A stretch of 15,405 nt of DNA from Candidatus Auribacterota bacterium (GCA_016932965.1 JAFGBW010000140.1:1-15405); one strand, 5' to 3'. Counted from the stretch's first letter, positions 10,871 to 15,028 are shown. Numbers and translations: made by a program. The notes: generated by a model not told the origin, from the letters alone.

Positions 10871-10990
10871 CTTCCTTCGAGGTGAAAAAATACAAGTTTT
10901 TTTATATGCCTTCTCAAAAGAATCTATGGGTGAGATAAGCTGGAATTTTATTATATCGTAATGCTTAGGAACAAGTTAGAATTCAGGAGT

Positions 10991-11403
10991 CAGAATTCAG
11001 TATGGAAAAGAAAAGAGCTAAAACTTTTCAAGATTTAATGGTTTGGCAAAAAGCCCATGCGTTCGTTTTAAGAGTTTATTCTTTTAGCCGATCATTTCCC
11101 AAAGAAGAAATGTTTGATTTGAGTTCCCAATTCTGAAGTGCTTCTGTCTCTATACCGGCAAATATTGCTGAAGGTTTCAAAAAAAATCTGACAAGGACAA
11201 AATGCGTTTTTTCAATATCGCTAAAGGCTCAGTTGAAGAATGCCGTTCTTGAATGTCAGGCTAAAAATGAGGAAATAAGATGAAATACGATAAAATAAAG
11301 GGTTTTATTGAAAATTTAAAGAAGCCGGATATAGAATTGCTGCGACCAACGGGAGTCCCCCTTTGGGGATGGAGGCCGAAGGCCGGAACAATACTGAATT
11401 CTG
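10991..11403. mobile_element. 413-bp unit with 13-bp perfect terminal inverted repeats around a decayed S23 gene
   Basis: CAGAATTCAGTAT (10991-11003) is perfectly repeated in inverse at 11391-11403. The left end lies in heptamer-type DNA (GAATTCA, GGAGTCA, GAATTCA at 10979-10999). Between the ends are the broken four-helix-bundle gene (11002-11283) and two small hairpins, CCCC-TTT-GGGG (11358-11368) and GGCC-GAA-GGCC (11374-11384). I see no transposase and no clear target-site duplication. Calling it mobile is inference; it may be a non-autonomous element or a repeat-framed passenger. Confidence 0.4.
11002..11283 (+). pseudogene. Decayed four-helix-bundle protein (S23/IVP family)
   Basis: From the ATG the frame reads a clear S23-family N-terminus: TFQDLMVWQKAHAFVLRVYS, FSRSFPKEEMFDLSSQ. 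An in-frame TGA follows at 11134-11136, where the family normally continues into RRAAVSIPANIAEGF; the sequence after the stop, SASVSIPANIAEGF, keeps the family core. A second lesion lies at the 8-A run 11179-11186: a shift there restores SDKDKMRFFNIAKGSVEECR, again family sequence, which then ends at a TGA. The gene therefore has at least a nonsense change and a frameshift. Intact relatives are about 115-130-residue helical bundles first known from 23S rRNA intervening sequences and also common as stand-alone genes; their role is poorly known. Being full of lesions, this copy is very probably non-functional. Confidence 0.85.
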
Positions 11404-11496
11404 CTCATCAAGGAAGAAAAGAATATAAAACCGAAAAAAATGGTTAAAAATACCCACAGTTTTTTTTATAGAGCCAAGTTTTTATATATTAATATA
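11404..11496. other. AT-rich spacer, nothing recognised
   Basis: About 90 AT-rich bases with an 8-T run near 11460-11467. No stem precedes the T-run, so I do not call a terminator. No reading frame is supported. Confidence 0.4.
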
Positions 11497-11551
11497 AACC
11501 GCTTAGAGCGGTTCTCATTTTAAAGCTATCGGCTCTGCCGGTAGTATATTT
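11497..11551 (+). repeat. Two-hairpin element, copy A
   Basis: Hairpin 1 is AACCGCT-TAG-AGCGGTT (11497-11513). Hairpin 2 is CTATCGGC-TCT-GCCGGTAG (11526-11544), an 8-bp stem with one T-G wobble. The element aligns over about 55 bases with 14896-14952 on the same strand (about 40 identical), and hairpin 2 has compensating changes between copies. It could be a structured RNA, a REP-like DNA repeat or a transcription-end element. Confidence 0.55.
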
Positions 11552-11575
11552 ACTAAAATCTGTTTCAGCAGAATA

Positions 11576-11608
11576 AAAAACCGGCCGGTTTTTGACCGGC
11601 CGGTTTTT
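11576..11608 (-). terminator. Strong intrinsic terminator of the TonB-dependent receptor gene
   Basis: The inverted repeat AAAAACCGGCCGG (11576-11588) and CCGGCCGGTTTTT (11596-11608) surrounds a 7-nt loop, about 30 nt after the receptor stop. Runs on both sides make it usable in both directions. Confidence 0.9.
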
Positions 11609-11638
11609 ATCATTCTAACTAACTGGAAAAGATATCAA

Positions 11639-13954
11639 TTAGAAAGTAAATGAGCTTTTGATGCCTATCACCGTAGGCTCATCAACAGCCGCTCCGCCTT
11701 CCATGATATACACATAGCGCCAGTTCTTGGTCAGCTTCAGCAGGTTCTGTCCATACAGGGTGACTGACCAGGGTTCCGTTATCTTGTATGAAAGAGCCAG
11801 ATCAAATCTGAAATCCATTTCAAATATGTCTTCACCTTCCATTTTATCCAGATTGTCTTGGGTAACTGTTTGAACGGAAGTTCCGACAGAACCTTCTTCG
11901 TACATTTTCATCCAGTTTTTATTGCCTTCATATTCCCAGACCACTCTCATGCTGTTGAAGAGAGTCAGTTTTTCGGTCAGTTTCATGATGGTATAAAACT
12001 TGGTGACATGGTTTGCCCAGTTCATCCTGTCATCACCGGTGCTGTATCTTCTGACTCCTTCCTGATCCAGGTTGTTTGAATCAGAACGGCTGAGATAACT
12101 GCCTGATTGGTCAGCAGCCAGTTCAAAATCCAGTTCTGCTGAATAAGCATGGTTCAGGCCGTAGATATATTTCTCATCTTCGGTTTTGTATTGAAGGGTC
12201 ACGTCAACACCGCCAAGGGTTAAGCTGCCTGTAATCGTGGTTGTGGCCCTCGGATCTCCCTCTGCATTGGCACCGGAATTCCAGCCCAAAAGGTCAGCCT
12301 TGCTGTAAAACAGGGCGACTTCTGCTGAAAACTGCGGGGTCACGTTTTTCTTGTAGATGAATTCCAGTCCGTCAAATTCTTCCGGTTCCGGAGTCTGGTT
12401 GTTAAAATAATCCGCTGAAATAAGCTGAATGGTGGTGTTTTCGCGGATGGACCGCTGGATGTTGAATTTGAATAGTCCGGCAGTTTCATTATTGTAAATA
12501 AGAGAAAGACGGGGTGAAAAGCTCATGTCTGAAAATTCATATTTATCCGCTCTACCGGACAGCATGATGTCGAATTCCGGAGTCAATGAAAAGTTCATCT
12601 CCGCCAGGAACGCATAGCTCGACATGTCAGCGCTGGTCAGGTAAACCTGCCTGTCTGTCCCGATCCAGGAACGTGCTGCCAACGCAGGAGACCCCGGACG
12701 ACTTACAAAGAGAACTCCGTCATCCATGATGAATTCGTCCTCATCGTCATCTCCCCAGCCCTGGTCCAGACTGTCCTTGGCCAACTCGAATCCGAACGCA
12801 GACTTGATTTTTTCCGTGATATTGTATTTGAGGATGCTTTTTAAAAGGATCCTGCTTTCCGAGTAATTTTCCACGTAATTGCCTTTTTCAATCGTGCTTT
12901 GGTCTGTTCTTTCCTGGTCAATATTGCTGTAGCTGAGAGTGGTTTTTAACGAAAGGTCATCTGAAAAAACATGATTGTTTTCACCGGCAAAGATGCATTG
13001 CTGCACTCCGGTTGCGGATGAGTTTTCCCAGTCTCCGTTGTTGTTCCGCTGATAAAACCACGTCGGAGCACCGCCTGTAGAGTGCGCCCATACAACCATT
13101 CTGGATGTGCCTGATCTGGTATACCTGCCCCAGATTTTGAATTCTTTGAAAAGCGCCAGTTCAGCATAGGCTTTGATCTGAGCTCTGTCCAGATAATCCG
13201 GATAGTATTCCAGAACAGGTGATACATAGGTGTTGGTATCGAGCACCATGGGCGAGACATACCTGGCTTCTACAGAGGGGGGGGCAAAGGTAAAAATATC
13301 AGGTTCTTCCTGTCCGTCAGTCGCCGTATAACTGACGTACGAGTATAATCCGAAATTATCCCCGACAAAGGAATTGCTGAGATGAATGCCCTTTGAACTG
13401 TATTCGGTCACATACTGCACACCGACTACAGTGCCTTTCTGGACAACAGAGGCATTTTTCGTCGTGATGCTGATCACACCGGCAACCGCGCCGGGTCCAT
13501 AAGTTACAGAACCGGGCCCGCGGATGACTTCCACTTTTTCAATATCATTGATATCCCAGTTTTCCATTTCTGTCACCACACCGGCGTGGGAACGCTGATT
13601 GGCAAGCACTCCGTTGACCAATAAAAGCCACGTATAGTCCCTGTCTATCACCAGTCCTCTCAATCCCATGTGGGTGGAATCAAAATGCGTGAAAGTCTGA
13701 AAACCCGGAACAAACATCTCCAGTAGATCATATAAGTTTCTTACCGGAGCCAGGGCGATTTTTTCCTTGTCAATCACGGTGGTTGAAACCGGTGATTTTT
13801 CTTTTTGAGTCTGGGTCAGGGTGCCTGCTGCAATCGGAATTTCTTCAAAAAGCAGGTATTCCAGGCCTTCCTCTGCAATATTGGCCTGCTGGGCGTATAC
13901 AGAACACCCTGTAGCCAGCATCAATGTCATCAGGTACAAGAACAATTTTTTCAT
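11639..13954 (-). CDS. TonB-dependent outer-membrane receptor
   Basis: 771 residues. A signal peptide (1-21, cleavage near VYA-QQ) is followed by a TonB-box-like segment around 37-44 (FEEIPIAAG). A plug domain at about 53-168 has the diagnostic IEKVEVIRGPGSVTYGPGAV, then AGVISI. A long beta-barrel follows, rich in alternating aromatic strands, ending in phenylalanine (SSFTF) as outer-membrane barrels do. Such receptors import siderophores, cobalamin, metals or glycans using TonB-ExbBD energy. The plug start (SPVSTTVIDKEKI) is of the common BtuB/FepA type, without a carboxypeptidase-like extension. No neighbouring transporter, biosynthesis or regulator gene indicates the substrate. The cysteine at 17 (LATGC) is not a good lipobox. 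AAAGGA precedes the ATG at 13954. It has its own promoter and terminator, so it is monocistronic. Confidence 0.92.
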   Translation of the reverse strand: MKKLFLYLMTLMLATGCSVYAQQANIAEEGLEYLLFEEIPIAAGTLTQTQKEKSPVSTTVIDKEKIALAPVRNLYDLLEMFVPGFQTFTHFDSTHMGLRGLVIDRDYTWLLLVNGVLANQRSHAGVVTEMENWDINDIEKVEVIRGPGSVTYGPGAVAGVISITTKNASVVQKGTVVGVQYVTEYSSKGIHLSNSFVGDNFGLYSYVSYTATDGQEEPDIFTFAPPSVEARYVSPMVLDTNTYVSPVLEYYPDYLDRAQIKAYAELALFKEFKIWGRYTRSGTSRMVVWAHSTGGAPTWFYQRNNNGDWENSSATGVQQCIFAGENNHVFSDDLSLKTTLSYSNIDQERTDQSTIEKGNYVENYSESRILLKSILKYNITEKIKSAFGFELAKDSLDQGWGDDDEDEFIMDDGVLFVSRPGSPALAARSWIGTDRQVYLTSADMSSYAFLAEMNFSLTPEFDIMLSGRADKYEFSDMSFSPRLSLIYNNETAGLFKFNIQRSIRENTTIQLISADYFNNQTPEPEEFDGLEFIYKKNVTPQFSAEVALFYSKADLLGWNSGANAEGDPRATTTITGSLTLGGVDVTLQYKTEDEKYIYGLNHAYSAELDFELAADQSGSYLSRSDSNNLDQEGVRRYSTGDDRMNWANHVTKFYTIMKLTEKLTLFNSMRVVWEYEGNKNWMKMYEEGSVGTSVQTVTQDNLDKMEGEDIFEMDFRFDLALSYKITEPWSVTLYGQNLLKLTKNWRYVYIMEGGAAVDEPTVIGIKSSFTF

Positions 13955-14093
13955 TCTTTTTTTCCTTTGTTAGGTGTTAAGTTTAAAGTTTGAAATCAAC
14001 CATTTATTTCTTACAAATTTGACAAATCTATGAAAAAGTAATGTACCTCCTTTCTCATTCAAAAATAAAGGGTTAGACAATATGACAAAAATT
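13955..14093 (-). promoter_or_regulatory. Long leader of the receptor gene, with an orphan Shine-Dalgarno and micro-ORF
   Basis: The predicted transcript starts near 14093, giving about 139 nt of leader. It contains AAAGGAGGT (14045-14053, minus), a better ribosome site than the gene's own, with no ATG, GTG or TTG at usable spacing after it. A 15-codon frame, MRKEVHYFFIDLSNL, runs from 14058 to 14011 and overlaps that site. No named riboswitch is recognised. Confidence 0.35.
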
Positions 14094-14099
14094 TTTTTT

Positions 14100-14128
14100 A
14101 TTATATATGATTGAATGTGATATGTAAA
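14100..14128 (-). promoter_or_regulatory. Sigma-70-type promoter of the receptor gene
   Basis: Minus strand TTTACA (14123-14128), 17-bp spacer, TATAAT (14100-14105): a perfect -10 and a 5-of-6 -35. It abuts the stop codon of the acetyltransferase gene (14129-14131). Confidence 0.7.
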
Positions 14129-14617
14129 TTAAAATAATATTTTTTCGAAGAAAAATTCTTTTCCCGGAATGGACTCCTCCCTGATCCGGATAAATCCGTT
14201 TTTCTCAACCGATTTGACAGACGGTTTATTTTCAGAATAGATGGAACAAGTGAGCTTTTTCAATCCGATTTCCTGTGCTTTCTGACAGATCATAGACACC
14301 AGGAGGCATCCCAGTCCTTTTCCTCGGAAGCCGGGATCCCCTATGAGAAACGAGAACTCCCCCGTCTGTTTCAAGGGGTTCACATCGTATATGGAACCAT
14401 ATCCGATGATTCTGCCGTTTGCCTTGAAAGCAAAATAAAAGCATCCCTGCGGGTCCGTGATCATGGAATCAATGTCGGACTGGGTATAGATTTTGTTCTC
14501 TTCAGTATCGGTCATGAAACCTGACAGGACCGGATCGTTGAACCATTTCACCAGAAAAGGGCCGTCTTCTTCAGAAACAGGTCCAAGCGAGAAAGTATCC
14601 TGAGCTTTGTTATTCAT
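14129..14617 (-). CDS. GNAT-family N-acetyltransferase (RimJ/RimL-like)
   Basis: 162 residues, typical for a single GNAT domain. The acetyl-CoA pyrophosphate-binding motif R-G-K-G-L-G is at 98-103, preceded by the beta-4 strand GEFSFLIGDPGF, and motif B follows with SENKPSVKSVEKNGF at 128-142, the usual N-S-EKNGF pattern. The N-terminus (LGPVSEEDGPFLVKWFNDP) fits the Acetyltransf_3/RimJ-RimL group, which acetylate ribosomal protein N-termini, polyamines or small amines. The substrate is not predictable. The ribosome site is weak (CCGGA about 9 nt upstream of the ATG). The gene's stop codon touches the receptor promoter, but the two genes appear to be separate transcription units. Confidence 0.88.
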   Translation of the reverse strand: MNNKAQDTFSLGPVSEEDGPFLVKWFNDPVLSGFMTDTEENKIYTQSDIDSMITDPQGCFYFAFKANGRIIGYGSIYDVNPLKQTGEFSFLIGDPGFRGKGLGCLLVSMICQKAQEIGLKKLTCSIYSENKPSVKSVEKNGFIRIREESIPGKEFFFEKILF

Positions 14618-14790
14618 GAAGGATTATCCGGTTGAATGATTTCATGTTTGATTCTGTTAAAAAAGACAAAATTTCTTGTCAAGTCAATCGTTTCCGAGTA
14701 TAGGTTCATTCATTTAATCAATCCGATAAACTATCACGACGGGTTTTGGATTTGAAACGTATGATAGTGACTGGATGATATATTTGTTAA
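14618..14790. promoter_or_regulatory. Upstream region of the acetyltransferase gene
   Basis: On the minus strand a perfect TTGACA (14677-14682) is followed at 17 bp by the poor TAACAG (14654-14659), so the promoter is uncertain. An inverted repeat ACTATCA (14730-14736) / TGATAGT (14762-14768) lies further upstream. No gene is supported on either strand. Confidence 0.3.
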
Positions 14791-14878
14791 GGAATTGAGA
14801 ATTCAGTGGAAGAATGAACAGAATCAGGAAAGAAAGAATGAACTTATTTTTTATTCCCGATTTTGAGTTCTCAATTCC
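14791..14878. repeat. 88-bp inverted-repeat element with heptamer ends
   Basis: Left arm GGAATTGAGAATTCA (14791-14805) and right arm TGAGTTCTCAATTCC (14864-14878) are inverted at 14 of 15 bases. Each arm is two heptamers of the GAATTSA type. The 58-nt interior has the direct repeat GAATGAAC (14812-14819, 14836-14843) and no reading frame. It is similar in its ends to the S23 unit at 10991-11403. Confidence 0.5.
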
Positions 14879-14895
14879 TGGCAGTATAAAACAAT

Positions 14896-14952
14896 CCGCA
14901 ATGAAGCGGTCCGCATAATAAAGCAGCCGGCTCTGCCGGTTGTATTTTTTTA
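14896..14952 (+). repeat. Two-hairpin element, copy B
   Basis: Hairpin 1 is CCGC-AATGAA-GCGG (14896-14909). Hairpin 2 is CAGCCGGC-TCT-GCCGGTTG (14924-14942), with one G-T wobble, followed by a 7-T run (14945-14951). It is homologous to copy A at 11497-11551. It starts 17 nt after the 88-bp inverted repeat and ends 77 nt before the foldase gene. The stem plus T-run could also end transcription on the plus strand. Confidence 0.55.
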
Positions 14953-15028
14953 CACCAATACATGGAGTCAGTTTGCCTCTGTCCATCTGGATAAGGGGCA
15001 TTTTGATCACTGAAGGAGAATAAAAAAA

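Follow-up and report, generated by a model that had tools for sequence, protein, structure and literature searches.

The window analysed here, a stretch of 15,405 nucleotides from Candidatus Auribacterota bacterium, carries two copies of a short two-hairpin element on its plus strand, on which the parts of both copies and the broken gene 5' of copy 1 described below also lie. As the initial annotation had described, positions 11499-11551 and 14896-14952 align on the same strand (42 identities over 58 aligned columns here, about 40 over about 55 bases in that annotation), each copy contains two hairpins with the loop TCT in hairpin 2, and the lower pairs of hairpin 2 change together from copy 1 to copy 2 (T-A to A-T, A-T to G-T, and T-G to C-G). 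Hairpin 2 comprises 8 pairs in each copy, and when folded as single-stranded DNA each copy forms both hairpins (z = -4.5 for copy 1 and -2.0 for copy 2). In copy 1, sequence and DNA fold place hairpin 1 (AACCGC-TTAGA-GCGGTT) at 11497-11513 and hairpin 2 at 11526-11544, with a guide-like TAAAG at 11521-11525, immediately 5' of the foot of hairpin 2, and a TTAC tetranucleotide at 11550-11553. The corresponding features of copy 2, read from the sequence, are hairpin 1 (CCGC/GCGG) at 14896-14909, TAAAG at 14919-14923, hairpin 2 with its TCT loop at 14924-14942, and TTAC at 14950-14953.

Upstream of copy 1 lies a broken gene of the 23S_rRNA_IVP/four-helix-bundle type (11003-11283; two pieces matching PF05635 with E values of 7e-19 and 1e-4, and TIGR02436), which is flanked by two halves, 10909-11000 and 11390-11477, that match another locus (L155) where the halves stand closer together. 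The gene sits as if nested in another repeat, of which it is possibly a passenger. Downstream, tandem CCGGCCGG palindromes flanked by A and T runs (11577-11612) likely form a two-way terminator between copy 1 and a TonB-receptor-like gene. Copy 2 forms part of a larger unit, in which a pair of internal inverted-repeat arms, GGAATTGAGAATTC (14791-14804) and GAGTTCTCAATTCC (14865-14878), complementary at 13 of 14 positions, precedes the two hairpins; the copy lies 78 bp upstream of a gene, and a terminator-like T-run follows hairpin 2.

Further copies were sought with a covariance model of the core (R1, 75 positions, built from 16 copies), a search that the initial annotation had proposed, and copies were counted with models. 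Of the 39 host-genome copies that R1 detected at E<=1, 32 also passed E<=0.01, whereas the relatives searched gave a single weak, unrelated, terminator-like match; the copies are not chance matches. An exact-pattern search of the genome_contigs set gave no match. A 20-nt pattern matched 33 times in the host genome vs 6 times for its reversed control. Within the window, R1 matches 11481-11554 in copy 1 (E 5e-19), delimiting an element at 11481-11553, and 14878-14953 in copy 2 (E 6e-13). A second conserved block, TTAATTAATCCGGTAAACCACCG..GGACTAGCAAAGTTTGACAATTCCGGAA, lies upstream of most core copies, and in the host genome a model of this block (R2) identified 80 copies at E<=1. The block, referred to below as the left end (LE), stands upstream of the core, or right end (RE), on the same strand in 22 cases, with 0.3 expected by chance; no pair in the wrong order or orientation was found beside these 22 ordered pairs. 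The resulting units span 163-514 bp. Their spacers vary; inverted repeats built from short periodic motifs (CACGGAG.. or GAATTGAG..) often border them, and some spacers contain other repeats. In the window, R2 detected no left end beside copy 1 and recognised a diverged one at 14712-14789 for copy 2 (E 1.8e-5, copy 2 itself being among the R2 training sequences). With both end models matching on one strand, copy 2 is a whole unit of about 235 bp running from 14719 to its right tip at 14953. Thus, the two-hairpin core of the initial annotation stands, but the element is larger than described, as the left end of copy 2 belongs to it as well.

Periodic CACGGAG/CTCCGTG inverted repeats give 173 pattern matches in the host genome vs 7 in the control (e.g., L070); they often occur as facing pairs inside LE-RE units, and the arms of single copies share odd changes (L070). 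In addition, a second type of right end, with an additional hairpin between hairpins 1 and 2 (GCCACTTTGAGTGGC..GAGGCTT..GCC..TCAAGCC..TTTGACT), was observed at L075, L132, L141, L150, and L155, where it is located after other left ends.

The core copies are mostly intergenic, and their neighbours, as judged by reading, include aconitase-like, type II secretion, ribosomal protein, and tRNA ligase genes, among others, in every orientation. The idea that these neighbours make up a regulon was set aside, since they are unrelated. A structured host RNA, such as a cis-regulatory leader, an attenuator, or a small RNA, would account for hairpins that fold well, for the position of copy 2 just upstream of a gene with a T-run behind hairpin 2, and for the frequent presence of a same-strand gene after the core (about 19/28 by eye). 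However, the T-run is absent from most copies, searches with Rfam covariance models at gathering and relaxed thresholds matched no family, and a cis-regulatory role is disfavoured because the neighbouring genes are unrelated and lie in every orientation. Together with the occurrence of the same structure 3' of tnpA in intact insertion sequences (ISs) of many phyla, described next, these points make a host RNA very improbable.

A blastn search with a short LE+RE unit led to plasmid pLBX of Leptolyngbya boryana, where the match lies just upstream of an annotated IS200/IS605 tnpA gene. At this locus, the LE model matches before tnpA (66 bits, E 8e-11) and the RE model after it (40.4 bits, E 1.4e-8). 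A scan for relatives of the Leptolyngbya TnpA gave 468 confirmed places, and 80 loci were fetched. At nearly all of them, an RE match follows tnpA directly on its 3' side; at about half, an LE match stands where it is expected, about 125 bp 5' of the gene. Loci with a right end 3' of tnpA occur in cyanobacteria, Desulfobacteria, Verrucomicrobia, Beta- and Gammaproteobacteria, Acidobacteria, and others. Because both models match around tnpA in pLBX and in the fetched loci, the two-hairpin element can be assigned to the right end of this IS200 lineage, and the left and right ends of the host family match those of intact, tnpA-bearing family members. Multi-copy ISs within one genome also define the boundaries: TAAT on the left and, on the right, TTAC or TGAC, after which a T usually comes. 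Accordingly, the TTAC of each window copy is equivalent to the cleavage site at the right tip, and a TAAT at 14715-14718 represents the presumed target to the left of copy 2.

The intact elements further clarify the meaning of the paired stem changes, from which the initial annotation had suggested selection on structure. Within the host, covariation is weak: 87.4% of cells are paired vs 85.9% in shuffles, and only 2 pairs are changed on both sides vs 2.3 in shuffles, so that selection on structure is unprovable from the window or host copies alone. It is clear, in contrast, in 40 distinct intact right ends, where 95.1% of cells are paired vs 87.2% in shuffles, 8 pairs are changed on both sides vs 3.3, and the covariation score reaches 0.231 vs 0.082 (0/500 shuffles in each comparison), while slid controls reduce the paired cells to 28-48%. 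The position of hairpin 2 that is A-T or G-T in the window copies is U-A in 21, C-G in 11, and A-U in 8 of these ends, always paired, and 38 ends have C-G as the next pair down. In the left end, one pair is changed on both sides (9/22).

A second kind of covariation links the guide to the tip. In IS608, the tip base-pairs with a tetranucleotide located 5' of the hairpin foot, and this pairing, not the protein, determines where the cut falls (PMC5934647, PMC6006769). Among 41 distinct intact ends of the present lineage, the guide base and the tip base are distributed 14:0:0:27, TAAAG occurring with TTAC in 14 and TCAAG with TGAC in 27 (Fisher p 3e-11, a value that ignores relatedness; 11 further ends were unparsed). 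In the host, 14/16 parsed right ends conform to this rule and 2/16 break it, and both window copies combine the guide TAAAG with the tip TTAC. The guide rule worked out for IS608 thereby gains comparative-sequence support across phyla.

Taken together, these results make it highly probable that the window elements are right ends of non-autonomous, transposase-less derivatives of an IS200-type (IS200/IS605, tnpA-only) insertion sequence, which gives a name to the family that the initial annotation had not recognised. The family is a known kind of mobile element rather than a new RNA, and the simplest reading of its hairpins is that they descend from an IS, in which the transposase recognises them, and are not host regulatory RNA. 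Of the two options originally left side by side, RNA or DNA hairpin, the DNA hairpin is the better one. Under the proposed mechanism, hairpin 2 would be the palindrome bound on single-stranded DNA by the Y1 HUH transposase TnpA, and the TAAAG at its 5' foot would act as the guide, pairing with the right-tip tetranucleotide TTAC and thereby placing the cut. The upstream left end would be the partner of the right end, and with TnpA supplied in trans, the unit may have left as a single-stranded circle and inserted 3' of a TAAT-like target. Two puzzling intergenic hairpins thus become a recognisable transposon relic whose compensated stem changes are explained, because elements of this type are cut in a single-stranded, folded form. 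The case also calls for caution, since compensated hairpin changes between repeats of one genome need not mean regulatory RNA.

An autonomous IS200/IS605 element encodes TnpA, as do the intact relatives with the same ends; in the host assembly, by contrast, three queries found no intact tnpA, no gene carried PF01797 or NF033573, and searches with Y1_Tnp, TnpB, and IS200 profiles gave no match. The sole trace is a relic of 20 codons corresponding to the start of TnpA (MKDEDSIVHAKWECKYHIV, C103:735-794), located just 3' of a left end. In tblastn, this very short query matches annotated IS200/IS605 tnpA genes with an E value of about 0.03, and it is 65% identical to the Leptolyngbya protein; phmmer against PDB returned chance matches only, and neither Pfam nor NCBIfam gave a match. 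The host copies have diverged, and in many of them the hairpins are broken. Because the copies have diverged and the transposase was not found, they probably no longer move, and the population appears to be stranded. It is conceivable that the elements are still mobile in trans through an IS200 copy absent from the assembly, which is 92.6% complete and split into 300 contigs, as ISs present in several copies are frequently lost from assemblies of this sort, and several copies do retain near-intact guides and tips. Nevertheless, the divergence of the copies, the many broken hairpins, and the reduction of tnpA to a fragment make continued mobility unlikely.

The Y1 transposases of the phylum provide a further comparison. 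Among 43 phylum relatives, no close relative of this TnpA was found (best 37% identity), while Y1_Tnp proteins of other lineages occur in 33/44 genomes of the phylum. None of six Y1 transposase loci from relatives carried ends that match, and the four that were read belong to a different lineage, most with REP-like arrays. At L081, L082, L083, and L085, Y1 transposase genes of phylum relatives stand among repeated REP-like hairpins, their lineage being unlike that of the host elements. Many short palindromic intergenic repeats in a phylum rich in Y1_Tnp proteins might suggest REP/REPIN sequences that depend on a domesticated transposase of the RAYT (TnpA_REP) type. The host family resembles REP/REPIN sequences in having short hairpins between genes together with a guide tetranucleotide (PMC6006769). 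Yet the host has no Y1_Tnp gene and hence no associated RAYT, the Y1 loci of relatives lack these ends, and the unit has two distinct, asymmetric ends, one on either side of a spacer, that both match an IS200 element and are tied directly to a mobile one. A RAYT-served family accordingly seems extremely improbable, more so than a structured host RNA, and derivation from a tnpA-only IS remains the preferred reading.

With respect to the tnpA-only IS200 group itself, the host family shares ends that match intact tnpA-bearing elements, subterminal hairpins, and a guide 5' of the hairpin foot whose pairing partner is the tetranucleotide at the tip, and terminal inverted repeats were not seen; it differs in that its copies lack tnpA and have variable spacers, often with internal inverted or other repeats. 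The right-end hairpin region also recalls the omega-RNA of TnpB, which lies at IS605 right ends, but there is no TnpB in the host and none is annotated beside the Leptolyngbya tnpA. A closer parallel is offered by the palindrome-associated transposable elements (PATEs) of Haloquadratum walsbyi, which are transposase-free, lack terminal inverted repeats, carry near-terminal palindromes derived from IS605-type elements, exist in many divergent copies, and have other repeats nested inside, with tnpA absent or broken in H. walsbyi (PMC3119063). The host family has the defining properties of a PATE, namely freedom from transposase, near-terminal palindromes related to the ends of IS605-type elements, and no apparent terminal inverted repeats (PMC3119063). 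Unlike PATEs, it is bacterial, stems from a different, tnpA-only lineage, and has an extra conserved hairpin 1 in its right end. The family therefore fits closely as a bacterial counterpart of the haloarchaeal PATEs derived from a tnpA-only lineage, a PATE-like population of about 80 left and 40 right ends that fills intergenic space in a bacterial assembly without a remaining transposase.

The conserved hairpin 1 may have a role of its own. In about 40 of 50 intact ISs, a stretch of 7-16 nt in the tnpA leader is perfectly complementary to hairpin 1 of the right end, on its 3' side (loci L162-L237), and GTGA[A/G]CCGC in the leader complements GCGG[T/C]TCAC in the hairpin over 8-16 nt; the complementarity is absent from the cyanobacterial ISs. 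The two sides covary between lineages, GAACCGC occurring with GCGGTTC and GAGCCGC with GCGGCTC. True pairs have a mean duplex energy of -25.2 kcal/mol, vs -22.7 +/- 0.32 for permuted pairs (0/2000, a result inflated by relatedness) and -15.6 for shuffled leaders. From these sequence comparisons, it may tentatively be proposed, with some doubt, that in the IS200 lineage hairpin 1 is one half of a conserved 5'-3' pairing with the tnpA leader rather than a transposition signal. A limited literature search found no report of such pairing for IS200; elsewhere, pairing between 5' and 3' UTRs controls translation, as reported for icaR (PMC3868564). If the proposal is true, the two mRNA ends, or an RNA derived from the right end, could control tnpA translation, and the host relics would keep only the right-end half of the pairing.
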